This document shows, in pieces, positions 9,615 through 64,000 of a stretch of DNA of 64,000 bases. Each line of letters begins with the position of its first letter. Position 1 is the first letter of the stretch. The notes below the pieces were generated by a model. It was not told where the DNA came from. It saw nothing but the letters and a program-made list of their open reading frames with translations, and ran no database searches. Source of the stretch: Streptomyces sp. S3(2020) (GTDB lineage Bacteria; Actinomycetota; Actinomycetes; Streptomycetales; Streptomycetaceae); assembly GCF_013044505.1 (NCBI RefSeq), contig NZ_JABERD010000022.1, positions 1 to 64,000 on the forward strand, in the 5' to 3' direction. Position numbers and translations under genes: made by a program.

Positions 9615-11299
9615 GAGGACTCCTCCCTGACGAGGTGGGCGTCCGGGGCCAGCGGTGCGGGCCTCGGGATTCCCTCGTGGATGAGGTGCCAGGGTGAGGG
9701 GAACTCACCGACCGGCACGTCGATCAGAACGGGTTCGTTGGCGCTCACCGCCTCGGCGAGGACGCCCTGGAGTTCCTTGGGCGTCCAGGCACGCGCGGAG
9801 GCGATGCCGAAGGCGGCGGCGAGCTGCGGGTAGTCGGGGTTGGTGAGGTCGGTGGCGAAGTAGCGGGCGCCGTACCGGTTCTTCTGGATGCGCCGCACGT
9901 TGCCGTAGAAGCCGTCGTGGAAGACGACGGTCACCAGCCCCAGGTCGTACTTGCGGGCGGTCGACAGTTCCTGCAACGTCCAGGAGAATCCGCCGTCGCC
10001 GTTGATCGACACGACGGGCCGGTGCGGATCGGCGGCCTTGACGCCGAGCGCGGTCGCGAAACCGTAGCCGAGGGTGCCCTGGTAGCCGGGGCCTATGTAG
10101 GTGCGGGGCCGGTGGGCCGGGTAGCAGGCGCTCGCCGCGTACCCGACCTGGGTGAACTCGCTCACCAGCACTCCGTCGCCGGGGAGGGCCTGCCGGATCG
10201 CGTCGAGGTACTCGCGCTGCGGGCCGATGTCCGCGAACTGCTCCTGGAGCCAGGCCCGGACGGCGGCGAACTCGCTGTCGCGCTTCGGCCGGGAGGGCTT
10301 GCCGACCTCCTCCACCAGGCCGCTCAGTCCGAGGGCCGCGTCGGCATGCAGGCGTAGGTCGGCCTCCCGGGGACCGTGGAGGTCGTCGTGCTCGGCGTTG
10401 AGGAGGATCACCTTGGCGCCGGCGGTGTCGATCCGGGTGCCGAACGTGGAGACGAAGCGGGTGCCCACGGCGAGCACGACATCGGCGTCGGGCCGGAAGG
10501 CACGCAGCGCCAGGGCGTCGAAGGCCAGCCGGTGCCGGGCGTCGATGGCGCCCCGCCCGTTCTCGCTGACCAGGACGGGCGCCTCCAGGGTCTCCGCGAG
10601 CGCGAGGAGCGCCGGGGACGCGTCGGCGGCGAGAACACCGCCGCCGACGTAGATCAGCGGGCGACGCGCTCCCCGCAGCAGCCGGGCGGCCTCCGCCAGT
10701 GTCTTCGGGTCGGGCTGTACGGGTCCCGCGGCGACGCGGCCGGGGATCGCGGCCTGCGCGGTCGCGGCCAGTACGTCCGGCGGCAGTTCGAGGGCCACCG
10801 GTCGTGGCCGCCCGCCGCGCAGTTGTCGGAAGGCCTCCGCCACCAGGCCGGGGATCTGCTCCGCCGAGCGGGCCGTACCGGTCCACTTCGTCAGCCGCTC
10901 CAGGATGCCCGTCTGGTCGGGGATCTCGTGCAGGGCGCCGAGGCCCTTGCCGATGGCCCGGGAGTCGATCTGCCCGGCGAGCAGCAGGACGGGCGAGTTG
11001 GCGGAGTAGGCGGTGGCCAGGCCGGAGAGCGCGTTGAGGACGCCGGGCCCCGGTACGACCATGGCGACGCCGACCTCGCCGGTGCTGCGGGCGTAGCCGT
11101 CGGCCATGTAGGTGGTGGCCTGTTCGTTGCGTGCGCAGAGGAAGTCGATCCGGTCGGCGCGCTGGTACAGCGCGTCCGCCGCCGCGTCGAGCTGCACACC
11201 GGGGATGCCGAAGACACGGGAGACCCCTTGGGCCGCCAGGGACTCGGCCAGCAGGTCGCCGCCGGTCGGCGTGTTCACAGGGTTCACGGTTCTTCCCAC
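9611..11299 (-). CDS. Thiamine-diphosphate-dependent 2-oxo acid enzyme
   Basis: The 562-aa protein has the three-domain layout of acetolactate synthase/benzoylformate decarboxylase relatives. The N-terminal pyrimidine-binding domain carries the activating Glu in ARNEQATTYMADGYAR, the middle domain is around residues 190-330, and the C-terminal domain has the Mg-ThDP motif beginning NGDGGFSW. It is coupled to an aldehyde dehydrogenase, which favours a decarboxylase over acetolactate formation. It leads a two-gene operon with a strong leftward promoter at 11351-11378. The substrate could be an aryl-2-oxo acid made by the nearby aminotransferase, but this is not shown by sequence. Confidence 0.85.
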   Translation of the reverse strand: MGRTVNPVNTPTGGDLLAESLAAQGVSRVFGIPGVQLDAAADALYQRADRIDFLCARNEQATTYMADGYARSTGEVGVAMVVPGPGVLNALSGLATAYSANSPVLLLAGQIDSRAIGKGLGALHEIPDQTGILERLTKWTGTARSAEQIPGLVAEAFRQLRGGRPRPVALELPPDVLAATAQAAIPGRVAAGPVQPDPKTLAEAARLLRGARRPLIYVGGGVLAADASPALLALAETLEAPVLVSENGRGAIDARHRLAFDALALRAFRPDADVVLAVGTRFVSTFGTRIDTAGAKVILLNAEHDDLHGPREADLRLHADAALGLSGLVEEVGKPSRPKRDSEFAAVRAWLQEQFADIGPQREYLDAIRQALPGDGVLVSEFTQVGYAASACYPAHRPRTYIGPGYQGTLGYGFATALGVKAADPHRPVVSINGDGGFSWTLQELSTARKYDLGLVTVVFHDGFYGNVRRIQKNRYGARYFATDLTNPDYPQLAAAFGIASARAWTPKELQGVLAEAVSANEPVLIDVPVGEFPSPWHLIHEGIPRPAPLAPDAHLVREESS

Positions 11300-17561: not shown

Positions 17562-17599
17562 GATGTCATGGATGCCGACAGAGATGTCATGGATGCCGA
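17562..17599. repeat. Two 17-nt direct repeats in kynurenine-operon leader
   Basis: The sequence GATGTCATGGATGCCGA occurs at 17562-17578 and identically at 17583-17599, a 21-nt period of about two helical turns. It lies between the predicted promoter and the formamidase GTG start. It could be a tandem operator for the ArsR-type regulator of the operon or a leader element. It could equally be a small chance duplication. Confidence 0.75.
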
Positions 17600-22589: not shown

Positions 22590-22619
22590 ACTGTACCCAT
22601 CAGTAGCCATCCCATGTAA
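22590..22619 (-). promoter_or_regulatory. Predicted promoter of the secreted hydrolase
   Basis: Reading leftward, -35-like TTACAT (22619-22614) and -10 TACAGT (22595-22590) are 18 bp apart, placing the start about 170 bp before the ATG at 22429. The remaining part of the 22430-22774 gap shows no gene and no strong hairpin. Confidence 0.45.
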
Positions 22620-51711: not shown

Positions 51712-53670
51712 TCAGAGGGCGATGATCTGCCACTGCTGCTGGACGGCGCGGGTGTAGGTGTACTGGTCGACGTTGGCTCCGTCGGCGGTGGAGCCGCCGG
51801 CGACGTTGAGGGCGAGTCCGCTGAGCCGGTTGGTGAGGTAGTAGTAGCCGTCGCCGGTCGGGGTGACGGCCCAGTGCTGCTGGGGCACGTTGGCGTCGGA
51901 CCAGATGCTGACGTCGCCGCTGTCCGCCCGGGAGAGACCGGCCACTTCCATCAGCTTGCCGCTGTTGACGTTCTTGATCTTGTAGTAGCCGTCGCCGGTG
52001 GAGGTGAAGGTCCACTTCTGGGCGGTGTTGTTCAGCCAGGGCCACTGCTGGATGTTGGTGCCGTTGGCGGTGCCGAAGTTGTACACGTCGGCCACCTCGC
52101 CGCTGCCCCGGTTCACTATGCGGTAGACGGTGCTGTTGCCGGGCAGGACCGTGGAGACCAGGGCGGGCTTGGCGGTGCGGCCTCCGATGTGCAGTCCGCC
52201 GACGTTGGCGTAGTTCCCGGTGGCCGCGTTGACCTGGAGGCGGACGTAGCCCACGTTGCGCGCCGTCCACTCCGCCACCTTGGTGGCCCGGGTGCCCGCC
52301 CACGTCCCGCTCGCGACCTGGGTGAAGGTGACCCCGTCGGTGCTGGTGGAGATCGTGTACGAGGTGATGTCACCGTCGGTGGACTCGCTGCGGCTCCACT
52401 GCTTGGGCAGGTATTCCAGGGTGGAGACGTTGCTCCACACCCCGCCCAGGTCGACGGTGATCGACTGCGGCAGCGCCAGCGTGCCGCTGGTCGGCGTGGT
52501 GCTCCAGGTCGACCAGCACGTCTCGTAGCCCTTGTCGCTGAGGCCGTCGATCGCGTTCATCGGGCCCTCACCGGTGTGGAACCCGGTCGCGTACGCGCTG
52601 ACCGGCGTCACGGGATGCTCGGCGCGGAGCATCTGCGTCGGCAGCGGCGCCCGCGAGGTGTTCGGGCTCCAGGCTGCGCCGACCTCGGCCAGCCGGGTCA
52701 CGATGTTGGTGTCCAGCACGCCGTTGCGGTTGGGCGGGCAGTTCAGGATGAACGAGGTGTACTTCGGCTCCAGGTCCGCCAGATGCGACAGGATCGACGC
52801 CTTGCTCAACGGGTCGGTGGTGGGCGTGGAGGGGTGCCAGAACCAGCCGTTGCTGATCGTCTGCCCCTGGAGCGCCGCGTACGTGTTCCCCGTCGGCGCC
52901 GTGATGCCCAGCGGCTCCTCGAAGTAGATCGCGTCGCCGAGGAACGGCACGGAGAGCCCACCGTGGTCGATCATGACGGTGTCGGGCTGGAGGGACTTCA
53001 CATGCTCCCGGATGCGCTGGTACGACACCGCCTGCTGGCCCATCTGCCAGGCGTAGCCGTCGGTGACGAACATGTCGATCGTCCCGTAGTTCGTCAGCAG
53101 CTCGGTGATCTGGTTCAGGATGAACGTGAGGTCGCCGGGCACGATCGTCTGGTCGGCGGCCACCCCGTGGCGGGTGTCGTACGCCTGCACGTCGTAGGTA
53201 CGATCCCAGATCGAGAAGTACAGGCCGATCTTCAGTCCTTGCGCGCGGAACGCGTCCACGTACTGGCGGACCACGTCATGCGGGTAGGAGCTGTTGGCGA
53301 CGTTCTGGGTGCCGTAGGCGCTGGGCCACAGTGCGAACCCGTCGTGGTGCTTGGTCGTCAGGACCCCGTAGCTCATCCCCGCGGCCTTGGCAGCCGCCGC
53401 CCACTGCGCGCAGTCCACCGCCGTCGGGGCGAACAGGGTCGGGCTCTGGTTCGGCGCGGCCCACTCCTCGTTCGTGAACGTCCCCAGGTTGAAGTGGTTG
53501 AACATGCCGAACCGCAGGTCCACCAGATTGCTCAGGTTGGTCTGCGCGTCGGCGGCCATCGCCTCCCCCAACAGGCCCGAGAACGCGGGCACTACGGGCA
53601 GCGCGGTCGCGGCCACGGCCGCACCCGCCGCGCCCAGCAACGTACGACGGGACAGTCTCTCTGACGACAT
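51712..53670 (-). CDS. Secreted GH29 alpha-L-fucosidase with F5/8C and ricin-lectin domains
   Basis: The 652-aa precursor has a Tat signal (SRRTLLGAAGAAVAATA). Residues ~45-345 are a GH29 barrel, with FGMFNHFNLGTFTNEEW, LTTKHHDGFALW and the nucleophile Asp in DMFVTDGYAW. A discoidin-type carbohydrate-binding domain (~365-500; HTGEGPMNAIDG, WSTWSTTPTSG) follows. A C-terminal ricin B trefoil (~515-652) has the QxW repeats NIQQWPWLNNTAQKW and VPQQHWAV. It releases L-fucose from glycans outside the cell to feed the divergent importer and catabolic operon. The catalytic acid is not obvious by eye. Confidence 0.92.
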   Translation of the reverse strand: MSSERLSRRTLLGAAGAAVAATALPVVPAFSGLLGEAMAADAQTNLSNLVDLRFGMFNHFNLGTFTNEEWAAPNQSPTLFAPTAVDCAQWAAAAKAAGMSYGVLTTKHHDGFALWPSAYGTQNVANSSYPHDVVRQYVDAFRAQGLKIGLYFSIWDRTYDVQAYDTRHGVAADQTIVPGDLTFILNQITELLTNYGTIDMFVTDGYAWQMGQQAVSYQRIREHVKSLQPDTVMIDHGGLSVPFLGDAIYFEEPLGITAPTGNTYAALQGQTISNGWFWHPSTPTTDPLSKASILSHLADLEPKYTSFILNCPPNRNGVLDTNIVTRLAEVGAAWSPNTSRAPLPTQMLRAEHPVTPVSAYATGFHTGEGPMNAIDGLSDKGYETCWSTWSTTPTSGTLALPQSITVDLGGVWSNVSTLEYLPKQWSRSESTDGDITSYTISTSTDGVTFTQVASGTWAGTRATKVAEWTARNVGYVRLQVNAATGNYANVGGLHIGGRTAKPALVSTVLPGNSTVYRIVNRGSGEVADVYNFGTANGTNIQQWPWLNNTAQKWTFTSTGDGYYKIKNVNSGKLMEVAGLSRADSGDVSIWSDANVPQQHWAVTPTGDGYYYLTNRLSGLALNVAGGSTADGANVDQYTYTRAVQQQWQIIAL

Positions 53671-53751: not shown

Positions 53752-53880
53752 ACATGACCAGCCAGTGTCAACCTTCGCGCAGGGATGAATGTCCACCAAC
53801 TGGCGGCCGTTATGTGCTTTCTATCCCTTATTTGAGGATGTGCACCTACCAAGACATAGCATGTATCGGCTTCCGACCCC

Positions 53881-53919
53881 TGGACAGAACCGAACCCGCC
53901 CCTATACAAACATCCCATC
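53881..53919 (+). promoter_or_regulatory. Fucose-importer promoter with operator-like motif
   Basis: -35 TGGACA (53881-53886) and -10 TATACA (53903-53908) are 16 bp apart. The motif ACATCCCATC (53910-53919) follows at once, over the expected start, a repressor position. The same 10-mer occurs twice before the catabolic operon. Confidence 0.6.
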
Positions 53920-53964
53920 TCTACAAGGGATCGTCGTCCATCGGACCAGCGCGAGGAAGTAGCA

Positions 53965-55029
53965 ATGAGGCTCAGATCCGCTCTCTCCACCACCGTCTCC
54001 GTCCTGTCGGCCCTGGCGCTGCTCAGCGCCTGCGGCAGCGGCGGCGACTCCGCCACCACGTCCGACGGCAAGCCCCTGGTGGGCGTCGACTACCCGCGTT
54101 CCGACACCGACTTCTGGAACTCGTACATCAAGTACACGCCGGACTACGCCAAGCAGCTCGGGCTGTCCCTCAAGACGACCAACTCGCAGAACGACGTCGC
54201 CAAGCTGACGGCCAACGTGCAGACGTTCATCAGCCAGGGCGTCAAGGGTGTCGCGATGGCCCCGCAGGACACCGCCGCGATCGCGCCCACCCTGGCGCAG
54301 CTGGAGGCGAAGAAGATCCCGGTCGTCACCGTGGACACCCGCCCCGACAGCGGCAAGGTGTTCATGGTGGTGCGGGCCGACAACCGGGCGTACGGCGAGA
54401 AGGCGTGCCAGTACCTCGGCACCAAGTTGGGCGGCAAGGGCAAGGTCGTCATGCTCCAGGGCGGCCTCGACTCCATCAACGGCCGGGACCGCACCGAGGC
54501 GTTCAACGAGTGCATGAAGGCGAACTACCCGGACATCAAGGTGTTCGGCGAGGCCACCAACTGGGACGGTGCCGTCGCCGCGCAGAAGCTCCAGACGGAC
54601 CTGACCGCCAACCCGGACATCAAGGGCGTCTACATGCAGTCCAGCTTCGCCCTGGCCGGCACCCTCCAGGTCCTCAAGCAGAAGGGTCTGCTGGTCGACC
54701 CGTCCGACAAGAAGCACGTCTTCGTCGTCTCCAACGACGGCATACCCGAGGAACTCAAGTCGATCGCCGAGGGCAAGATCGACGCCACCGTCTCGCAGCC
54801 GGCCGACCTCTACGCCAAGTACGCCCTCTACTACCTGAAGGCCGCCATCGCGGGCAAGACGTTCAAGCCCGGCAAGACCGACCACGACAGCACCATCATC
54901 CAGGTCCGCGACGGACTGCTGGAGGACCAGCTCTCCGCCCCGCTCGTCACCGCCGACGGCGGCACCTACGGCGGCGTGGCCAGCCTGAAGAGCGACGACA
55001 AGTCCCTGTGGGGCAACAACCTCGGCTGA
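53965..55029 (+). CDS. Sugar-binding lipoprotein of a ribose-type ABC importer
   Basis: The 354-aa precursor has the lipobox LLSAC (Cys at residue 23) and a periplasmic-binding protein type 1 fold. Motifs include VGVDYPRSDTDFWNSYIKY at the mature N-terminus, GVKGVAMAPQDTAAIAPTL and KVVMLQGGLDSINGRDR. It belongs to the CUT2 (RbsB-like) group that binds monosaccharides. The position between a fucosidase and fucose enzymes points to L-fucose. A -35/-10 promoter and repressor-like motif lie 45-85 bp upstream, and the ATPase gene follows 44 bp later. Confidence 0.9.
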   Translation: MRLRSALSTTVSVLSALALLSACGSGGDSATTSDGKPLVGVDYPRSDTDFWNSYIKYTPDYAKQLGLSLKTTNSQNDVAKLTANVQTFISQGVKGVAMAPQDTAAIAPTLAQLEAKKIPVVTVDTRPDSGKVFMVVRADNRAYGEKACQYLGTKLGGKGKVVMLQGGLDSINGRDRTEAFNECMKANYPDIKVFGEATNWDGAVAAQKLQTDLTANPDIKGVYMQSSFALAGTLQVLKQKGLLVDPSDKKHVFVVSNDGIPEELKSIAEGKIDATVSQPADLYAKYALYYLKAAIAGKTFKPGKTDHDSTIIQVRDGLLEDQLSAPLVTADGGTYGGVASLKSDDKSLWGNNLG

Positions 55030-55073
55030 CGGCCGCCACCCATGCAACGGCTCACGAACACAAGGTGGTTGAG

Positions 55074-56636
55074 ATGAGCGACGGGGAGCGAGCAGTCACC
55101 CCCGTGCCCACCCCGGCGGCGTGCGGACGGGTCCCGGCGGACCCGCCCGTCGTCGAGGCGACGGGCATCACGAAACGGTACGGCCCGACGGTGGCCCTCG
55201 ACGACGCGCGGCTCACCGTCCGGCCGGGCGAGACGCACGCGCTCGTCGGGCGCAACGGGGCGGGCAAGTCGACCCTGGTGTCCGTCCTCACCGGGCTGCA
55301 GACACCGGACGCCGGAACGGTGACGTTCGGCGGCATGCCCGCACCGCGGGTAGCGGACCGCGACGCCTGGCGCGAACGCGTGGCGTGCGTCTACCAGAAG
55401 TCGACGATCATCCCCACGCTGACCGTGGCGGAGAACCTCTTCCTCAACCGCCACGGCCGCGGCCGCGCGGGGCTGATCGGCTGGTCGGCCCTGCGCCGCC
55501 GGGCGACGGAACTGCTCACGACCTGGTCGGTCGACGTGGACCCGCAGACACCCGCCGCCGAACTCTCCGTCGAGCAGCGGCAGTTCGTGGAGATCGCGCG
55601 GGCGCTGTCCTTCGGGGCACGCTTCATCGTCCTCGACGAGCCCACCGCACAGCTCGACGCGGCGGCCATCAGCCGCCTCTTCGACCGGATCCGGGACCTG
55701 CAACGGCAGGGCGTCACCTTCCTGTTCATCAGCCACCACCTCCAGGAGGTCTACGAGATCTGCGACACGGTGACGGTCTTCCGGGACGCCCGGCACATCC
55801 TGACCGCCCCGGTCGCCGACCTCCCGCGCACCGAACTGGTCGCCGCGATGACCGGCGAGGCGGCGGCCGACCGCGCCGGGGAACGCGCGAGCAGCGTCGA
55901 CACCTCCGGCGCGCCCGCGCTGAGCGTGACCGGTCTGGCCGGTGAGACCTATGCCGACGTCACCTTCCGGGTGCGCGCCGGGGAGATCGTCGGCCTGGCC
56001 GGGGCCGCCGGCAGCGGACGTACGGAGATCGCCGAGACCGTCGTAGGACTGCGGGCCGCCGCGACCGGGGGCGTGGAGATCGCCGGGCGGCGGCCCCGGC
56101 CGGGCAGTGTGCCCGCCGCACTGGCGGCCGGTGCCGGTTTCGTGCCGCAGGACCGGCACCACGAGGGCTTCGTACCGGACATGTCCATCGCGGACAACGG
56201 CACCCTGTCGGTGCCGGGCAGGCTCGGCCGGCACGGGTTCATCAGCGCCGGCCGCCGTGACCGTCTCGCGCGGGAGATGATCGCGAACCTGGCGATCAAG
56301 ACCCCGGGCCCGGAGCTGCCGGTCTCCGGACTGTCCGGCGGCAACCAGCAGAAGGTGGTCATGGCACGCGCCCTCGCCGACCACCCCCGACTGCTCGTCC
56401 TCATCAACCCGACCGCGGGCGTGGATGTGCGGTCCAAGGAGTTCCTCCTCGGCAAGGTCGAGGAGACCGCCGGGTCCGGCACCGGAGTGCTCATCGCCTC
56501 CGACGAACTCGACGACCTGCGCATGTGCGACCGGGTCCTGGTGATGTTCCAGGGCCGCGTCACGACCGAGATCAACCGCGGCTGGCACGACCACGACCTC
56601 GTGGCCGCGATGGAAGGAGTGGACCTGAATGCCTGA
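55074..56636 (+). CDS. Sugar ABC importer ATPase (RbsA-like, double NBD)
   Basis: The 520-aa ATPase has two nucleotide-binding halves. The first has Walker A GRNGAGKST (~63-71), a signature reading LSVEQRQF and Walker B RFIVLDEPTAQLD. The second has the degenerate Walker A GAAGSGRTE and signature LSGGNQQKV, and its Walker B reads LVLINPTAGVDV, lacking the Asp-Glu pair. One ATP site is therefore probably inactive, as is usual for CUT2 systems. The ATG at 55074 replaces a longer frame that runs through the binding-protein gene. It overlaps the permease start by 8 nt. Confidence 0.9.
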   Translation: MSDGERAVTPVPTPAACGRVPADPPVVEATGITKRYGPTVALDDARLTVRPGETHALVGRNGAGKSTLVSVLTGLQTPDAGTVTFGGMPAPRVADRDAWRERVACVYQKSTIIPTLTVAENLFLNRHGRGRAGLIGWSALRRRATELLTTWSVDVDPQTPAAELSVEQRQFVEIARALSFGARFIVLDEPTAQLDAAAISRLFDRIRDLQRQGVTFLFISHHLQEVYEICDTVTVFRDARHILTAPVADLPRTELVAAMTGEAAADRAGERASSVDTSGAPALSVTGLAGETYADVTFRVRAGEIVGLAGAAGSGRTEIAETVVGLRAAATGGVEIAGRRPRPGSVPAALAAGAGFVPQDRHHEGFVPDMSIADNGTLSVPGRLGRHGFISAGRRDRLAREMIANLAIKTPGPELPVSGLSGGNQQKVVMARALADHPRLLVLINPTAGVDVRSKEFLLGKVEETAGSGTGVLIASDELDDLRMCDRVLVMFQGRVTTEINRGWHDHDLVAAMEGVDLNA

Positions 56637-57672
56637 GACCGCCCTCGCCGACACCCCGACGCCGGACGCCGCCACGGCCGGACGCAAGCGGACCGCACTG
56701 CTCGGCGGCCGGATACCCCTGGCCCGGCTGCGCGACCTCGCGCTCGTCCCGGCCGTCGTGGTCATCGCGATCGTCGGCCAGATCGTCAACCCGGTGTTCC
56801 TGCAGACGGACAACCTCATCAACGTCCTGCAGACCATGTCCGAGATGGCCCTGCTCGTGCTGGCCCAGACGATGATCCTGATCGTCAAGAAGATGGACCT
56901 GTCCCTGGAGTCCACCATGGGCCTCGCGCCGGGCATCGCGGCCTGGCTGGTCGTCCCGGCCGGCGCGGGGCACGGACTCGGCCTGCTGCCCGGGGGCTGG
57001 GCGGTCCCCGTCACCCTCGCCGTGGGCGTGCTCGTCGGGGTCGTCAACGCGCTGCTGATCATCCGGTTCGGCCTGAACGGCTTCATCGTGACCCTCGGCA
57101 TGCTGATCGTGCTGCGCGGCATCCTCACGGGCGTCTCCGGCGGCCAGACCTTCTTCCAGCTCCCCCCGTCGATGCTCTACCTCGGCACCGCCCAGTGGTT
57201 CGGGGTGCCCGCCTCCATCTGGATCTGCCTGATCCTCTTCGCCATCGGCATCGTCGTCCTCGGCTGGACCAGCTTCGGCCGCGCGCTCTACGCCATCGGC
57301 GGCAACGTCGACGCGGCCAGGGCCGGCGGCATCCGCACCGACCGGGTGCTGTGGATCGTCATCGTCACCGGCAGCCTGCTCGCCGCCCTCGCCGGGCTGC
57401 TGCTGTCCGGACGGCTGGCCTCCGTCGCCTCCGCACAGGGCAACGGCTACATCTTCACCGTCTTCGCCGCGGCCGTCATCGGCGGCATCAGCCTCAACGG
57501 CGGCAAGGGCACCATGTTCGGGGCCTTCACCGGCATCCTCCTGCTCTACATGATCCAGAACGTCCTCACCCTGGGCGGCGTCCCCGCCCAGTGGATCGGC
57601 GCGCTGAACGGCCTGATCATCCTGGTCGCCCTGATCATCTCGCGCATCACCGGCGGCAAGGTCCAGGACTGA
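56629..57672 (+). CDS. Sugar ABC importer permease (RbsC-like)
   Basis: A 347-aa integral membrane protein of the BPD_transp_2 family with about ten hydrophobic segments. Signatures are LIVKKMDLSLESTMG near residue 82, ALLIIRFGLNGFIVTLGML in the middle and the GGNVDAARAGGIRTDRV coupling loop. It completes the importer. The 231-bp gap to the next gene (57673-57903) carries its own operator-like motifs, so the catabolic genes may be transcribed separately as well as by read-through. Confidence 0.9.
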   Translation: MPETALADTPTPDAATAGRKRTALLGGRIPLARLRDLALVPAVVVIAIVGQIVNPVFLQTDNLINVLQTMSEMALLVLAQTMILIVKKMDLSLESTMGLAPGIAAWLVVPAGAGHGLGLLPGGWAVPVTLAVGVLVGVVNALLIIRFGLNGFIVTLGMLIVLRGILTGVSGGQTFFQLPPSMLYLGTAQWFGVPASIWICLILFAIGIVVLGWTSFGRALYAIGGNVDAARAGGIRTDRVLWIVIVTGSLLAALAGLLLSGRLASVASAQGNGYIFTVFAAAVIGGISLNGGKGTMFGAFTGILLLYMIQNVLTLGGVPAQWIGALNGLIILVALIISRITGGKVQD

Positions 57673-57703
57673 ACCTCGGCGCCAGTGATCCCAACAGGCC
57701 AAT

Positions 57704-57820
57704 ACATCCCATCGATGGGCCGTCACACCCTCAAATCAATTGGATTATTTCGACTTCACCTTGCACGCGATGCACCAAGCACCACTAGACATCCCATCAA
57801 TCGCTAGACATTGGATGTCT
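57704..57820. promoter_or_regulatory. Operator cluster before the L-fuconate operon
   Basis: ACATCCCATC occurs at 57704-57713 and 57789-57798, the first extended to CCCATCGATGGG. A related palindrome, AGACAT-TGG-ATGTCT, lies at 57806-57820, and CTAGACAT repeats at 57785 and 57804 with a 19-bp period. A -35-like TTGCAC (57761-57766) and TAGACA (57786-57791) make a weak promoter candidate. The patch is AT-rich. The likely regulator is not in this window. Confidence 0.6.
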
Positions 57821-57903: not shown

Positions 57904-59229
57904 ATGCCCTCTGTCGTGTCCGCATCCGCCCGCATCACCGCCCTGGACGTTCTCGACGTACGGTTCCCGACGTCCGAGCACCTGGACGGGTCCGACGCGA
58001 TGAACCCCGAACCCGACTACTCCGCCGCCTACGTGGTCCTGCGCACGGACGCCTCCGACGGGCTGGAGGGCCACGCCCTGGCCTTCACCACAGGCCGCGG
58101 CAACGACGTGCAGGCCGCCGCCATCGCGGCCCTCGCCCCGCACGTGGTCGGCCTGTCCGTCGACGAGGTCTGCGCCGACCTCGGCGCCTTCTCCCGCAGC
58201 CTCGTCCACGACCCCCAACTGCGCTGGCTGGGCCCGGAGAAGGGCGCCATCCACATGGCGACCGGCGCGGTCGTCAACGCCGCCTGGGACCTCGCCGCCA
58301 AGCGGGCCGGCAAGCCCGTGTGGCGGTTCCTCGGGGAGATGTCCCCGGCGGAGCTGGTCGCCCAGGTCGACTTCCGCTGGCTGTCCGACGCGCTCACCCC
58401 CGAGGAGGCGCTGGAGATCCTCACCCGCGCCGAACCCGGCCGCGCAGAGCGCACCGCACGCCTACTGGAGCGCGGCTACCCCGCCTACACCACCACCCCC
58501 GGCTGGCTCGGCTACTCCGACGAGAAACTCGCCCGGCTCGCCCGTGAGGCGGTCGCCGACGGTTTCACGCAGATCAAGCTGAAGGTCGGCGCGGATCTGG
58601 AGGACGACATACGGCGGATGCGCACCGCCCGCGAGACCGTCGGCCCGGACATCCGCATCGCCGTGGACGCCAACCAGCGCTGGGACGTCCAGCCCGCCGT
58701 CGACTGGATGCGCGCCCTGGCCCCGTACGACCCGTACTGGATCGAGGAGCCCACCTCCCCCGACGACATCCTCGGCCACGCCGCCGTCCGCGACGCCCTC
58801 ACCCCCATCAAGGTGGCCACCGGCGAACACATCGCCAACCGCGTCGTCTTCAAACAGCTCCTCCAGGCAGGCGCGGTGGACATCGTCCAGATCGACTCCG
58901 CGCGCGTCGGCGGCGTCAACGAGAACATCGCGATCCTGCTGCTCGCCGCGAAGTTCGGGGTGCCGGTCTGCCCGCACGCAGGCGGCGTCGGCCTGTGCGA
59001 GATGGTGCAGCACCTGTCGATGTTCGACTACATCGCCGTCTCCGGCACGGTCGAGGACCGGGTCATCGAGTACGTCGACCACCTGCACGAGCACTTCACC
59101 GACCCGGTCCGCGTCACCGACGGCCACTACGCGGCACCGACCCTGCCCGGCCTGAGCGCGCAGATGCACCAGGACTCCCTCAAGGAGTACACGTACCCCG
59201 ACGGGCCGGTCTGGGCAGCCCGTGTCTGA
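57904..59229 (+). CDS. L-fuconate dehydratase (enolase superfamily)
   Basis: The 441-aa protein has the length and landmarks of L-fuconate dehydratase, which forms 2-keto-3-deoxy-L-fuconate. These are [22 protein letters not shown] near the start, [14 protein letters not shown], the KxK-type catalytic Lys in QIKLKVGAD, metal ligands in [20 protein letters not shown] and ATGEHIANR, and the catalytic His in [11 protein letters not shown]. The ATG at 57904 follows GAGCC; an in-frame start 93 bp upstream lies over the operator cluster. It leads a chain of seven genes with overlaps at every junction. Confidence 0.93.
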
Positions 59230-60127
59230 CACCGCGCGGGCGGAACTCGTCGACGCGCACCACCACGTGTGGGACCTCGACCGCCGCCCCCAGCCCTGGC
59301 TCGACGAGCCCGCCCACGCCCCGATCCGCCGTACGTTCGGCCCCGGCGACCTCCGGTCGGACGCGACCCGCGCGATCGACGGACGCCGGCTGTCGTCCAC
59401 GGTGGTCGTGCAGTGCGTGGCCTCCGTGCCCGAGACGGAGGAGCTGCTGGCACTGGCGGCAAGCGAGCCACTGATCGGCGCCGTGGTCGGCTGGGCCGAC
59501 CTCACCTCCCCGGCGATCGGCGACGTCCTCGACGCGCTGCGCGCGGGTCCCGGGGGCGGGTACCTGCGCGCGCTGCGCCATGTCGTCCAGGGTGAGATCG
59601 ACCCGCAGTGGCTGCAACTCCCGGCGGTCGAGCGAGGGTTGAGGGCCGTGTCCGAACGCGGCCTGGGCTACGACGTGCTGATCCGCTCCCACCAGTTCGC
59701 CCAGGCGATCCGGCTCGCCGGGCGGCTGCCGGACCTGCCCCTGGTGCTCGACCACGCGGGAAAGCCGCCGATCGCGAAGCACGAACTCACCGACTGGGAG
59801 CAGCAGATGCGGCTGCTGTCCGGGCACCCGGACGTGAGGTGCAAGGTGTCGGGACTGGTCACCGAGGCCGACCACGACACCTGGACGACCTCCGACATCC
59901 GGCCCGTCTGGGAGATCCTGCTGACCTCCTTCGGCCCCGACCGGCTCATGTTCGGCTCGGACTGGCCCGTCTGTGTCCTCGGCGGCGGCTGGAACCGCTG
60001 GGCGGAGACCGTCGAGGAGCTTCTGGACGACTGCTCCGACAGCGAGCGCCAGGCGATTCTCGCCGACAACGCGTCGCGGTTCTACGGACTGCCACCCACC
60101 CAGGAGAGGACCGACCCGTGCTCCTGA
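59222..60127 (+). CDS. L-fuconolactone hydrolase-type amidohydrolase
   Basis: The 301-aa TIM-barrel amidohydrolase has the metal motif [21 protein letters not shown] and the late Asp in MFGSDWPV. This is the pattern of L-fucono- and L-rhamnono-lactonases. It would open L-fuconolactone, made by fucose dehydrogenase, to L-fuconate for the dehydratase encoded just upstream. The GTG start overlaps the dehydratase stop by 8 nt, and the stop overlaps the mutarotase by 10 nt. Confidence 0.9.
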
Positions 60128-60555
60128 CCGAACTACTGCACCCCGGCATCCTGGAAGCCCTCGCCGGGGCCGGCCACGGCGCCCGCGTGCTGCTCGCCGA
60201 CGGCCACTACCCCGCCAGCACGGCCACCGGCGAGCGGGCCCGCACGGTCCATCTCAATCTGGCCCCCGGCCTGTTGGACGTCTCCACGGTGCTCGACGTA
60301 CTGCTGAGGTCGCTTCCCGTGGAGTCGGCCCAGGTGATGGTCCCGCCTCAGGGCGAACCCGAACCGCTTGCCATCGCCGCCCATCGCGCCCGCCTGAACC
60401 CCGTCCCGGTGGAGGCACTCGGGCGCTTCGAGTTCTACGACGCCGCGCGCTCCCCCGACCTGGCACTCGCCATCGTCACCGCCGACATCCGCACCTACGC
60501 GAACCTGCTGCTGACCATCGGTGTCCGCACTGAAGGGACCCTGACACCACGATGA
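60118..60555 (+). CDS. fucU: L-fucose mutarotase (RbsD/FucU family)
   Basis: The 145-aa protein of the RbsD/FucU fold interconverts alpha and beta sugar anomers. It shows LLHPGILEALAGAGHG, LADGHYPAST with the active-site His/Asp, and the C-terminal TADIRTYANLLLTIGV with the conserved Tyr. The position in a fucose operon makes L-fucose the probable sugar. The GTG at 60118 was chosen because it matches the family N-terminus; the longer frame runs in the preceding gene. Confidence 0.9.
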   Translation: MLLTELLHPGILEALAGAGHGARVLLADGHYPASTATGERARTVHLNLAPGLLDVSTVLDVLLRSLPVESAQVMVPPQGEPEPLAIAAHRARLNPVPVEALGRFEFYDAARSPDLALAIVTADIRTYANLLLTIGVRTEGTLTPR

Positions 60556-61598
60556 CGACACTCTCCGTGCGTTACACCGCTCCCCGCACCCTCGACACGG
60601 CACCGGCCGCCGACGCGCCGCCCGGACCCGGCGAAGTGGAGATCGCCCCGGCCTTCGTCGGGATCTGCGGTACCGACCTGCACATCTTCCACGGTGACAT
60701 GGACGCCCGGGTCACCACCCCCGCGGTCCTGGGCCACGAGATGGCGGGCACCGTCGTACGCGTCGGGTCGGGGGTGGCGGGCTGGCGTCCCGGTGACACC
60801 GTGACCGTGATGCCGCTGGACTGGGACGACACCTGCCCGGCCTGTCTGGCCGGCCACCGGCACGTCTGCCAGCACCTGGACTTCATCGGCATCGACTCGC
60901 CGGGCGCGATGCAGCAGCGTTGGACCGTGCCCGCCGCCACCCTGGTCCGTCTCCCGGCGGAACTCCCCCTCGCCTGGGGGGCGTTGGTGGAGCCCACCGC
61001 GGTGGCCGTACACGACGTCGGCCGCGCCGCCGTCCAGCCGGGCGAGAAGACCGTCGTGGTCGGCGGCGGTCCCGTGGGCATCCTGATCGCACTCGTCGCC
61101 AGGGCGGCGGGTGCCGAGGTCCGTGTCGTCGAGCTGAGCGGCTACCGCCGTTCCCTGGCGGCCGAACTCGGTCTGACCGCCTGGGATCCGGCCGCGCAGG
61201 ATGTGCCGAAGCTGGTCGAGGAATGGACCGGCGGCGCGGGTGCCGCGGTCGCCTTCGAGGTGTCCGGCGCGGCGGCCGGTGTGGAGACCGCGGTCGAAGT
61301 GCTGGGCGTGCGGGGAAGGTTGTGCCTGGTGGCGATCCATCCCCGGCCCCGCGAGATCAACCTGCACCGCTTCTTCTGGCGCGAACTCACCCTGGTCGGC
61401 GCCCGGTTGTACGACCGCTCCGACTTCGAGCGTGCCGTCGCCCTGGTCGCCGACGGCACCGTCCCCGCCGACCGGCTGATCAGCAGGACGGTGCCGCTGG
61501 CCGACGCCGCCTCGGCGTTCGAGGCGTTGGAAGCGGGCGGGGACGTCATGAAGATCCTCGTGGACTGCACCGACGACGCCCTGGGAGCCACCGCATGA
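60552..61598 (+). CDS. Zinc-dependent alcohol/sugar dehydrogenase
   Basis: A 348-aa medium-chain dehydrogenase with catalytic-zinc motifs GICGTDLHIFHGD and LGHEMAGTV and the Rossmann sequence VVGGGPVG. In the structural-zinc lobe, three Cys (CPACLAGHRHVC) remain but the first is Asp (D-x2-C-x2-C-x7-C), so that site is altered. It is the best candidate in the operon for oxidising L-fucose to the lactone, or alternatively 2-keto-3-deoxy-L-fuconate. It is linked by a 4-nt overlap to both neighbours. Confidence 0.87.
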   Translation: MTTLSVRYTAPRTLDTAPAADAPPGPGEVEIAPAFVGICGTDLHIFHGDMDARVTTPAVLGHEMAGTVVRVGSGVAGWRPGDTVTVMPLDWDDTCPACLAGHRHVCQHLDFIGIDSPGAMQQRWTVPAATLVRLPAELPLAWGALVEPTAVAVHDVGRAAVQPGEKTVVVGGGPVGILIALVARAAGAEVRVVELSGYRRSLAAELGLTAWDPAAQDVPKLVEEWTGGAGAAVAFEVSGAAAGVETAVEVLGVRGRLCLVAIHPRPREINLHRFFWRELTLVGARLYDRSDFERAVALVADGTVPADRLISRTVPLADAASAFEALEAGGDVMKILVDCTDDALGATA

Positions 61599-62356
61599 GC
61601 CTCTTCGACCTCACCGGCAAACTGGCCGTCGTCACCGGAGCCCGGCGCGGCATCGGACGGGCCATGGCCCGCGCGCTCGCCGAGGCGGGCGCCGACATCA
61701 TCGGTGTCAGCGCCCAGTTGGAGGAGTCCGGCAGTGACGTGGAGAAGGATGTCACCGCCGCGGGCCGCTCCTTCGAGGCCGTCCGCTGCGACTTCGCCGA
61801 CTCCGGTGCGGTCCGGGCCCTGAGCGCCGACCTGGCCGGACGGGAACGTCCGGTGGACATCCTGGTCAACAACGCCGGCACCATCCGCCGCACACCGGCG
61901 GCCCACCACCGCGACGCGGACTGGGACCTGGTCCTCCAGGTCAACCTCAGCGCACAGTTCACCCTCACCCGCGCGATCGGCGCCGGCATGATGACCCGCG
62001 GCCACGGAAAGATCATCTTCACGGCGTCGCTGCTCAGCTTCCAGGGCGGCATCACCGTCCCCGGCTACACCGCCTCCAAGCACGGCATCACCGGGCTCAC
62101 CAAGGCCCTCTCCAACGAGTGGGCCGCGCACGGGGTCAACGTCAACGCCATCGCGCCCGGCTACATCGCCACCGACAACACCCAGGCCCTCCAGGACGAC
62201 CCGGTCCGCAGCGCCTCCATCCTGGACCGCATCCCCGCCGCCCGCTGGGGCCGCGCCGACGACCTCGCCGGCGCCACCGTCTTCCTCGCCTCCGACGCCG
62301 CCGCCTACATCCACGGCACCGTCCTGCCCGTCGACGGCGGATGGCTCGGCAGATGA
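61595..62356 (+). CDS. KduD-like short-chain dehydrogenase
   Basis: A 253-aa SDR with the cofactor motif TGARRGIGRA, NNAGTIRR, the Ser of SLLSFQGG and the Tyr-x3-Lys pair in YTASKHG. The sequence from LSFQGG through APGYIATDNTQAL to the C-terminal VDGGWLGR is that of KduD/2-deoxy-D-gluconate 3-dehydrogenases and of 2-keto-3-deoxy-L-fuconate dehydrogenase. It could oxidise 2-keto-3-deoxy-L-fuconate at C4, giving a diketo acid. ATGA overlaps join it to the dehydrogenase and to the aldolase. Confidence 0.9.
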   Translation: MSLFDLTGKLAVVTGARRGIGRAMARALAEAGADIIGVSAQLEESGSDVEKDVTAAGRSFEAVRCDFADSGAVRALSADLAGRERPVDILVNNAGTIRRTPAAHHRDADWDLVLQVNLSAQFTLTRAIGAGMMTRGHGKIIFTASLLSFQGGITVPGYTASKHGITGLTKALSNEWAAHGVNVNAIAPGYIATDNTQALQDDPVRSASILDRIPAARWGRADDLAGATVFLASDAAAYIHGTVLPVDGGWLGR

Positions 62357-62982
62357 CCACCGATCTGACGTCCGTGCTGGGCGGCACCCGCCTCGTGCCG
62401 GTGCTCAGCGTGCCCGACCCGGCGTCGGCCGCCCGGCTGGCCGACGCGCTCGCCGAGGGCGGCGCCCGCTGCGCCGAGGTCACCTTCCGCACCCCGGCCG
62501 CCGAGGAGGTACTGAAAACCATGGCGACACACGGCGGCCTGACCGTCGGCGCCGGCACGGTCCTCACCCCGGAGCGGGCGGAGCGGGCCGTGGCGGCCGG
62601 GGCCCGCTTCGTGGTCTCCCCCGGCTTCGACGCGGACGTCGTCGCCCGGTGCCGGGCACTGGACGTCCCGGTCGTCCCCGGGGTGGCGACCGCCACCGAG
62701 CTGATGGCCGCCCTGCGGAGCGGGATCGACACCGTCAAGCTGTTCCCGGCCGAGGCGTTGGGCGGCCCCCGGATGCTCGCGGCGCTGGCCGCGCCGTTCC
62801 CCCGCGCGCGGTTCGTACCGACCGGCGGCATCGGCTTCGCTCAGCTGCCGGACTACCTCACCCGGCCGGAGGTCGTCGCCGTGGGCGGCAGCTGGATGGC
62901 GACCCCGGACCTGCTGGCGCGCGGTGACTTCACCACGATCCGACGGCTGACCACCGAGGCCGTGGAAAGGAGCAGGGTGTGA
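62353..62982 (+). CDS. eda: KDPG/KHG-type 2-keto-3-deoxy acid aldolase
   Basis: A 209-aa class I aldolase of the Eda family with LVPVLSVPD, the catalytic Glu in EVTFRTPAAEEVL, TVGAGTVLTPERAE, FVVSPGF and the Schiff-base Lys in DTVKLFPAEALGGP, followed by VPTGGIG. It cleaves 2-keto-3-deoxy acids or their 6-phosphates to pyruvate plus an aldehyde. With the kinase that follows it suggests phosphorylative Entner-Doudoroff-like cleavage; with L-fuconate derivatives it would yield L-lactaldehyde. Confidence 0.9.
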   Translation: MTTDLTSVLGGTRLVPVLSVPDPASAARLADALAEGGARCAEVTFRTPAAEEVLKTMATHGGLTVGAGTVLTPERAERAVAAGARFVVSPGFDADVVARCRALDVPVVPGVATATELMAALRSGIDTVKLFPAEALGGPRMLAALAAPFPRARFVPTGGIGFAQLPDYLTRPEVVAVGGSWMATPDLLARGDFTTIRRLTTEAVERSRV

Positions 62983-64000
62983 CCGGGTACGGCCACGGCA
63001 CCCAGGTGATCGCGCTGGGTGAGGTGATGCTGCGTCTCGACCCCGGTGAGGGACGTATCCGTACCACCCGCTCGTTCCAGGTGTGGGAGGGCGGCGGCGA
63101 GTACAACGTCGTACGCGGTCTGCGCCGCTGTTTCGGACTGCGCACCGCTGTGGTGACCGCCCTGGTCGACAACGCCGTGGGACGGCTCGCCGAGGACCTG
63201 ATCCTCCAGGGCGGGGTCGACACCTCGCTGATCCGCTGGGTACCGGGAGACGGCGTGGGCCGCTCGGCACGCAACGGACTGAACTTCGTCGAGCGCGGCT
63301 TCGGCGTCCGAGGCGCACTCGGCGTCAGCGACCGCGCGAACACCGCCGTCTCACAGCTGCGCCCCGGCGACATCGACTGGGACACGGTGTTCGCCGCCGG
63401 GGTGCGCTGGTTCCACACCGGCGGCATCCTCGCCGGGCTCTCCGACACCACCGCCGACGTGGCGGAGGAGGCCATGACCGCGGCACGACGGCACAGCGTC
63501 ACGGTCTCCTACGACCCCAACTACCGCCCCAGCCTGTGGGCCGACCGGGGCGGGGCCGACCGCGCCCGGGAGACCGACCTACGACTCGCCCAACACGCCG
63601 ACGTCCTGGTGGGCGCCCTGGGCATGGCCGGAAACCGACCCGGCGCCGTACGCGTCGACGCCCACGAGCTGCCGGACACCCTCGCCGACATCGCCTCCCG
63701 GCTGCCCGCGGCACTGGTACTCGCGACGACCCTGCGTGAGGTGCCCTCGGCGGGCGTCAACGACTGGTCGGCGGCTGCCTGGTCACGGGAGACGGGCTTC
63801 GTCCCGGGCCCCCGCATGCCCGGCCTGCACGTCCTGGACCGCATCGGTTCCGGCGACGGGTTCGCCGCCGGGCTGATCTACGGCCTGCTCACCGGCGCCG
63901 ACCTCGAACGCGCCCTCGCCTACGGCACCGCGCACGGCGCCCTCACCATGACCACCCCCGGCGACGTCTCGATGGCCTCACTCGCCGAGGTCGAGGCACT
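62979..64000 (+). CDS. PfkB-family 2-keto-3-deoxy acid kinase (3' truncated)
   Basis: The first 340 codons are present; the window ends before the stop. The GTG start overlaps the aldolase stop by 4 nt. Ribokinase-fold signatures are IALGEVMLRLDPGEGRI at the N-terminus, EGGGEYNVVRGL for sugar binding, SYDPNYRPSLW, and the ATP/catalytic-base motif LDRIGSGDGFAAGL with Asp as the base. This is the KdgK group, which phosphorylates 2-keto-3-deoxygluconate or related acids. No phosphorylation step is needed in the simple oxidative L-fucose route, so a second substrate such as a galactonate-derived acid is possible. Confidence 0.88.
   Translation, partial: MTGYGHGTQVIALGEVMLRLDPGEGRIRTTRSFQVWEGGGEYNVVRGLRRCFGLRTAVVTALVDNAVGRLAEDLILQGGVDTSLIRWVPGDGVGRSARNGLNFVERGFGVRGALGVSDRANTAVSQLRPGDIDWDTVFAAGVRWFHTGGILAGLSDTTADVAEEAMTAARRHSVTVSYDPNYRPSLWADRGGADRARETDLRLAQHADVLVGALGMAGNRPGAVRVDAHELPDTLADIASRLPAALVLATTLREVPSAGVNDWSAAAWSRETGFVPGPRMPGLHVLDRIGSGDGFAAGLIYGLLTGADLERALAYGTAHGALTMTTPGDVSMASLAEVEA

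Follow-up and report, generated by a model that had tools for sequence, protein, structure and literature searches.

A predicted operator for L-fucose genes in Streptomyces sp. S3(2020) and its probable FadR-type regulator

The fucose locus

The DNA considered here, from Streptomyces sp. S3(2020), comprises bases 1-64000 of a 74,007-base contig (C22) in a genome of 10,986,598 bases; this whole stretch of 64,000 nucleotides is termed the window. Our subject is a short repeated sequence in the promoter regions of a gene cluster near its end, apparently devoted to the uptake and breakdown of L-fucose, together with the protein that probably reads it. An earlier note on this DNA had taken the repeat, the 10-mer ACATCCCATC, for an operator shared by two promoter regions and recognised by a repressor probably encoded just beyond the window.

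The cluster begins with a secreted-type alpha-L-fucosidase gene (51712-53670, minus strand), with Pfam Alpha_L_fucos, ricin-type lectin and F5/8 C matches and a secretion signal recognised by eye. It is divergent from the plus-strand genes of a sugar ATP-binding cassette importer, namely the substrate-binding protein (53965-55029, Peripla_BP_4), the ATPase (55074-56636) and the permease (56629-57672), the latter two assigned by eye from sequence. A catabolic run follows on the same strand. Its first gene encodes an L-fuconate-dehydratase-like member of the enolase superfamily (57904-59229) and the second a lactonase-like amidohydrolase (59222-60127), for which the best NCBIfam match is L-fucono-1,5-lactonase with 198.5 bits, below the cut-off of 400. 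Next are a FucU/RbsD-like mutarotase (about 60120-60555, by eye), a zinc-type alcohol dehydrogenase family gene (60552-61598, plus strand) reaching no equivalog cut-off, a short-chain dehydrogenase (61595-62356, plus strand, assigned by eye from sequence), an aldolase of KDPG/KHG type (62353-62982, plus strand) and a PfkB sugar kinase (plus strand), which starts at 62979 and runs through the window end at 64000 to contig position 64034. Beyond the window the same run continues with an aldo/keto reductase gene (contig 64038-65135) and closes with a GntR/FadR regulator gene (contig 65126-65872) that overlaps it.

Family searches thus place lactonase, fuconate dehydratase, dehydrogenase/aldolase, importer and fucosidase families together, with no NCBIfam equivalog cut-off reached, so that L-fucose as the substrate rests on gene content and the fucosidase. 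We infer both this substrate and the transcription of the gene runs as operons. Rfam at the gathering threshold gives no match between 53000 and 58500, hence no known cis-acting RNA in the leader regions, and control by an RNA leader was dropped from consideration.

Predicted operator sites

Exact copies of the 10-mer lie at 53910-53919, 57704-57713 and 57789-57798, as the earlier note had it. The sequence is rare, with six copies on both strands of the genome, three of them outside the window. A perfect palindrome, AGACATTGGATGTCT (AGACAT-TGG-ATGTCT, 57806-57820), had been described as a further element; its presence and perfection are borne out, its separateness is not. The best reading makes the 10-mer and the palindrome forms of a single 15-bp site, AGACAT-NNN-ATGTCT. 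All the sites fall in one register, the 10-mer copies fitting the frame A-N-ACAT-NNN-AT-NNN-T.

Five candidate sites result. On the importer side AAACATCCCATCTCT (53908-53922, plus strand), which holds the 10-mer, overlaps the last base of a -10-like hexamer. The earlier list missed a stronger copy at 53852-53866, between the divergent fucosidase and importer genes; this is AGACATAGCATGTAT, with one mismatch to AGACATNNNATGTCT. On the dehydratase side ATACATCCCATCGAT (57702-57716), a weak copy, and AGACATCCCATCAAT (57787-57801), both on the plus strand and both holding the 10-mer, precede the perfect palindrome. The promoter-like hexamers TGGACA-N16-TATACA of the importer operon are at 53881-53908 on the plus strand, where the earlier note had placed them.

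The sites were scored with a matrix built from 16 sites of other species, outside this genome, selected by palindrome likeness, which renders the test on the contig partly circular. With this matrix the five sites come ahead of every other position on the 74,007-base contig, with scores of 25.3 (the perfect palindrome at 57806 and, jointly, the copy at 53852), 22.4, 18.6 (57787) and 16.8 (57702). The highest score in 40 Markov replicates is 19.2, and the top three sites exceed all 40. The next scores outside the fucose locus are 16.2 and 16.1, at 17580-17594 and 22605-22619 in the window.

A second set of counts comes from 80 loci, the best 80 from named genomes with the dehydratase as bait. 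The palindrome with its 3-bp gap matches 4, 31 and 96 times at zero, up to one and up to two mismatches, as against 0, 0-1 and 6-18 for eight other gap lengths. Sixty permuted half-sites give means of 0.02, 0.37 and 8.75 and maxima of 1, 11 and 78 at the same levels. At up to two mismatches two permuted half-sites reach 72 and 78 matches, compared with 96 for the true palindrome, and the genome count at two mismatches, 43, is near the 31 of a reversed pattern. Only counts at zero or one mismatch, and position, therefore carry weight; the locus counts are moreover not independent, since members of one clade are related.

The full palindrome with at most one mismatch occurs at four places in the genome: the two fucose promoters of the window, a position before a FadR paralogue on contig C75 discussed below, and one on contig C59, beside genes that look ketosynthase-like by eye, which is probably there by chance. 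The three other exact 10-mers are on contigs C5, C65 and C72, and inspection of the reading frames recognised no fucose gene directly downstream of them. The C72 copy shares its contig with a second fucose-like operon, at distances of 3.4 kb to the FadR gene and about 8 kb to the dehydratase of that operon.

Conservation upstream of the importer

Among the 80 loci, 19 have a dehydratase at least 84% identical to that of the window (clade A), and in 15 of these an importer gene was found. An alignment of 14 clade A importer promoters, with that of the window, keeps CT(A/G)GACA-like and CTATA-like hexamers throughout, with the operator directly after them; locus L035, where the importer is on the other strand, was left out of the alignment and is included in the counts that follow. 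The 10-mer is retained upstream of the importer in 13 of the 15 loci, and ACATCCCATCTCT in 12, the site being about 85 bases before the importer start codon in most of them. The remaining two loci have AGACATCCCATGTC(C/T) instead, L035 the near-perfect AGACATCCCATGTCC and L036 the perfect AGACATCCCATGTCT. This replacement of the 10-mer by the palindrome is the strongest evidence that the two are one operator. Neither of the outcomes that the earlier note took to refute its proposal, a motif frequent throughout the genome or one lost from orthologous loci, is seen, the second as judged on the importer side. A further palindrome with up to two mismatches is found within 330 bp upstream of the importer in 10 of the 15 loci, as at 53852 here, and ATGGGATG, an element with the same core on the other strand, is farther upstream in 11.

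A separate arrangement is seen in locus L022, where an importer-promoter-like stretch with ATACATCCCACCTCT, before the dehydratase at 10001, seems fused to the end of the permease; it appears as if the importer genes were deleted internally.

The linked regulator and its paralogues

The sequence after position 64000 holds regulator genes of GntR and LacI type. The GntR gene begins 1,126 bases past the window end, which accords with the expectation of a regulator just outside the window. Its product belongs to the GntR family, FadR subfamily, with a GntR winged helix (PF00392, 61.7 bits, cut-off 27) and an FCD domain (PF07729, 85.7 bits, cut-off 24.3). It falls below the NCBIfam cut-offs for the named FadR-type equivalogs (LldR, PdhR, GlcC, UxuR, ExuR and FadR) and for the NanR subfamily model, the best match being LldR with 97.8 bits against 311. 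A homologue with 73-91% identity is present in 17 of the 19 clade A loci. Those FCD domains that bind a carboxylate through a metal do so with an Asp/His/His/His set. The corresponding Asp143, His147, His192 and His214 are invariant in all 69 FadR sequences retained (3 of 72 records were set aside), and in this protein they are the expected ligands of a metal and a sugar acid.

The genome holds three members of this FadR group, encoded on C22, C75 (50% identical to the linked regulator) and C72 (49%); the next match is at 36%. The perfect palindrome AGACATCCGATGTCT precedes the start of the C75 gene (C75:32232-32973; L014:8254-8974) by 34 bp and comes shortly after a CATAATG sequence. The C72 protein, which belongs to another FadR clade, is encoded in the second fucose-like operon (C72:33966-39775, L120), whose dehydratase is 75% identical to that of the window. 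Here the conserved upstream element, TGGTNNGACCA in an alignment of 14 regulator genes of this type, is different, and no AGACAT palindrome with up to two mismatches is present in 18.5 kb around the C72 gene. The recognition helix and wing also differ, ISRSSMREAI and RHGSGIY in the C72 type as opposed to LSRNLAREAV and RRGDGTY in the C22 and C75 type. Because site and reading head change together, the window palindrome can be paired with the C22/C75 type, and comparison gives good support to this predicted link between site and protein.

In two species (L026:17199 and 18124; L029:17180 and 18104) the fucose operon ends with FadR genes duplicated in tandem.

Proposed control and alternatives

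The most probable interpretation, to which we assign a probability of about 0.8, is that the GntR/FadR protein at the end of the catabolic run binds the 15-bp palindrome and represses the importer and dehydratase operons until relieved by a sugar acid. The binding, the sign of control (repression as opposed to activation) and the effector are all predictions from sequence. Without L-fucose, a FadR dimer recognising AGACAT-NNN-ATGTCT would occupy the site at 53908, abutting the importer -10, and a second site 56 bp upstream at 53852, as well as those at 57702, 57787 and 57806 in the dehydratase promoter region, and initiation would be blocked. Uptake and oxidation of L-fucose would yield a sugar acid, most probably L-fuconate or the compound formed from it by dehydration, which would bind in the metal-dependent FCD domain and cause release of the DNA. 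Since the regulator is encoded in an operon under its control it would also limit its own supply.

Several observations weigh against this interpretation. The 10-mer form is a poor palindrome, its right half being ATCTCT, ATCAAT or ATCGAT, and another factor might read it. A simple sigma-70 scan called no promoter in the importer or dehydratase promoter region, so the promoter assignment rests on conservation only. Two of the five sites, those scoring 18.6 and 16.8, do not exceed the 40-replicate null. The ATGGGATG element of other loci is absent before the importer gene in the window, and the dehydratase, lactonase and regulator are each below NCBIfam equivalog cut-offs. Two of the 19 clade A loci show no FadR gene, L034 and L023, the contig of the latter ending early.

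The dehydratase side is the weaker part. A palindrome with up to two mismatches, or the 10-mer, occurs within 300 bp upstream of the dehydratase in only 3 of the 19 clade A loci (L031, L034 and L035). There is no such site in the 15 loci with the permease just upstream, where the gap between permease and dehydratase is 10-141 bp as opposed to 231 in the window. With sites so rarely shared, the second promoter region (57702-57820) looks like an addition of this lineage. The operator shared by two promoter regions in the earlier note is thus conserved before the importer and is not a general feature before the dehydratase.

The alternative that fares best, which we nevertheless hold to be unlikely, makes the unlinked C75 paralogue the main regulator of the window sites, or lets both proteins share them. 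The C75 gene carries the same palindrome in its own promoter, its orthologues (89-91% identical) flank fucose operons in other species, and cross-binding is plausible, the outer half-sites being identical. The central three bases speak for the linked protein; they are CCG or CGG before C75-type genes, and not one of 36 clade A palindromes (up to two mismatches, 19 loci) has either. In addition the regulator in 17 of the 19 window-type loci is of the C22 and not the C75 type.

Less likely again is that the FadR protein activates, or acts both ways, at these promoters. Some FadR-family proteins activate, and the site at 53852, like the further upstream palindromes in 10 of 15 orthologues, is placed where an activator could sit. 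The conserved site, on the other hand, directly adjoins the -10-like hexamer and would extend over the start point, and that of the C75 paralogue is just downstream of CATAATG. Characterised sugar-acid relatives usually repress, according to passages of PMC12288454.

A different candidate is the LacI-family gene, with LacI and sugar-binding domains, at contig 69940-70974, encoded on the same strand 5.9 kb beyond the window. Control of the fucose genes by this protein through the 10-mer is very improbable. LacI operators usually have a central CG, which is lacking from the window site with its 3-bp gap. The gene adjoins a large glycoside-hydrolase-like gene (read by eye), and it was set aside as a regulator of the locus because it is rarely found there, with a homologue of 31-50% identity in only 4 of the 19 clade A loci. 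Chance repeats, or repeats with no regulatory role, can practically be dismissed: the 10-mer at one mismatch is not unusually frequent in the window (4 observed, 2.6 expected) and the dehydratase-side copies are kept in few loci, but half of the six exact copies in 11 Mb are here, 13 of 15 loci keep the 10-mer before the importer and the five sites come top of 74 kb.

Comparison with known systems

L-fuconate is 6-deoxy-L-galactonate. The best solved-structure match to the linked regulator is 7C7E (E 2e-21), the structure of DgoR, the GntR/FadR repressor of D-galactonate use in Escherichia coli, which is described in passages of PMC12288454 as binding two inverted repeats overlapping the promoter and releasing them with D-galactonate. 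The shared features are the FadR subfamily, a sugar-acid pathway, inverted repeats overlapping a promoter and, as proposed here, release by the sugar acid of the pathway. The sequences are distant, and in the alignment with 7C7E a residue other than His takes the place of His214, the fourth metal-ligand position.

Within the genus, SCO1678 (GntR) is a FadR-subfamily regulator of the gluconate operon of Streptomyces coelicolor, and the passages of PMC5425828 treat its autoregulation; they contain no consensus operator. Genus, subfamily and control of a sugar-acid operon are in common. Unlike the regulator here, SCO1678 is divergent from its operon and not at the end of it, and it concerns gluconate and not fucose; the two are likened by description. 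FucR is a regulator predicted for L-fucose/L-fuconate loci of bacteria from microbial mats, Halomonas among them. As here, comparative genomics supplied the predicted sites and the locus is one for oxidative use of L-fucose, according to passages of PMC5507952. It belongs to another phylum and is likened by description.

In openly licensed full-text literature, the listings of which are partly incomplete, we found neither a FadR for fucose in Streptomyces nor an account of this operator. The predicted operator-regulator pair is a new example of a familiar kind of control, and gives work on L-fucose use in Streptomyces a defined site and protein that can be put to the test. More curious than the pair itself is the orphan paralogue.

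The orphan paralogue and unlinked fucosidase genes

The C75-type regulator often keeps its autoregulatory-type upstream site among relatives, an aligned site being present before 8 of 11 regulators of this group, that of the present genome included. In seven named-species loci (L038, L048, L059, L062, L077, L082 and L091) a fucose operon lies in an 8-9-kb stretch bounded by the C75 orthologue and a PAC2 gene. In this genome the two genes are 711 bp apart with no fucose operon between, and no operon remnants were recognised in the gap, where matches are of 15-25 bases only (best E 0.002).

Of 150 sampled genomes of the genus, 90 have a C75-type regulator (E up to 1e-95), with no internal stop in any of the matches. 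In 26 of these a dehydratase (E up to 1e-180) lies no more than 15 kb away from it and in 64 none does; nine of the 64 have no such dehydratase at all, and a few are fragmented assemblies where linkage could not be seen.

The pattern ACATCSGATGT was sought in 30 of the 64 genomes (chosen mainly by closeness, our own included) and in 20 of the 60 genomes lacking the regulator. It is present in 25 of the 30 and in nine of the 20, the latter genomes being somewhat smaller, and a reversed control is absent from all 50. Of the 54 sites in the 30 genomes, 19 are within 200 bp of the end of the regulator's own gene. Eleven of the other 35, at 10 loci, are within about 500 bp of the likely start of an alpha-L-fucosidase-like gene, called by Pfam in L217, L226, L228, L236 and L237 and by similarity to the window fucosidase in L229, L230, L235, L244 and, in our own genome, on C223. 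Nine probe proteins reveal no adjoining fucose gene at the remaining 24 sites; a family search of three neighbours among these gave a gene of glycoside hydrolase family (GH) 95, one of GH97 and an alpha-galactosidase gene.

The C223 fucosidase gene (L121:5203-7259), 76% identical to that of the window, has ATACATCCGATGTCC 92 bp before its likely start and is probably a member of the regulon in trans. In L228 (about 3040) and L229 (about 3357) a site lies between a GH43/ricin-lectin gene and a fucosidase-type gene divergent from it, so that the regulon may extend to GH43 enzymes. Such sites near dehydratase genes are also present in genomes without the C75 type (G004 and G015), and additional FadR types with similar sites may exist in some of the genomes.

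We tentatively suggest, as a possibility and less than an expectation, that one fucose regulon is shared by the FadR paralogues of C22 and C75, which have the same palindrome, the C75 orphan commanding dispersed secreted fucosidase genes and engaging in cross-talk with the cis-encoded repressor. The C75 protein would then have outlived its operon in this lineage, or never have had one. The proposed operator itself ties uptake, breakdown and unlinked secreted fucosidases into one predicted regulon, and in the orphan we have a naturally occurring regulator that has been retained with no operon beside it.

Six of the 26 linked genomes (G147, G052, G029, G072, G057 and G129) have dehydratase and regulator matches only 1.5-2.4 kb apart, a spacing which suggests shortened operons.

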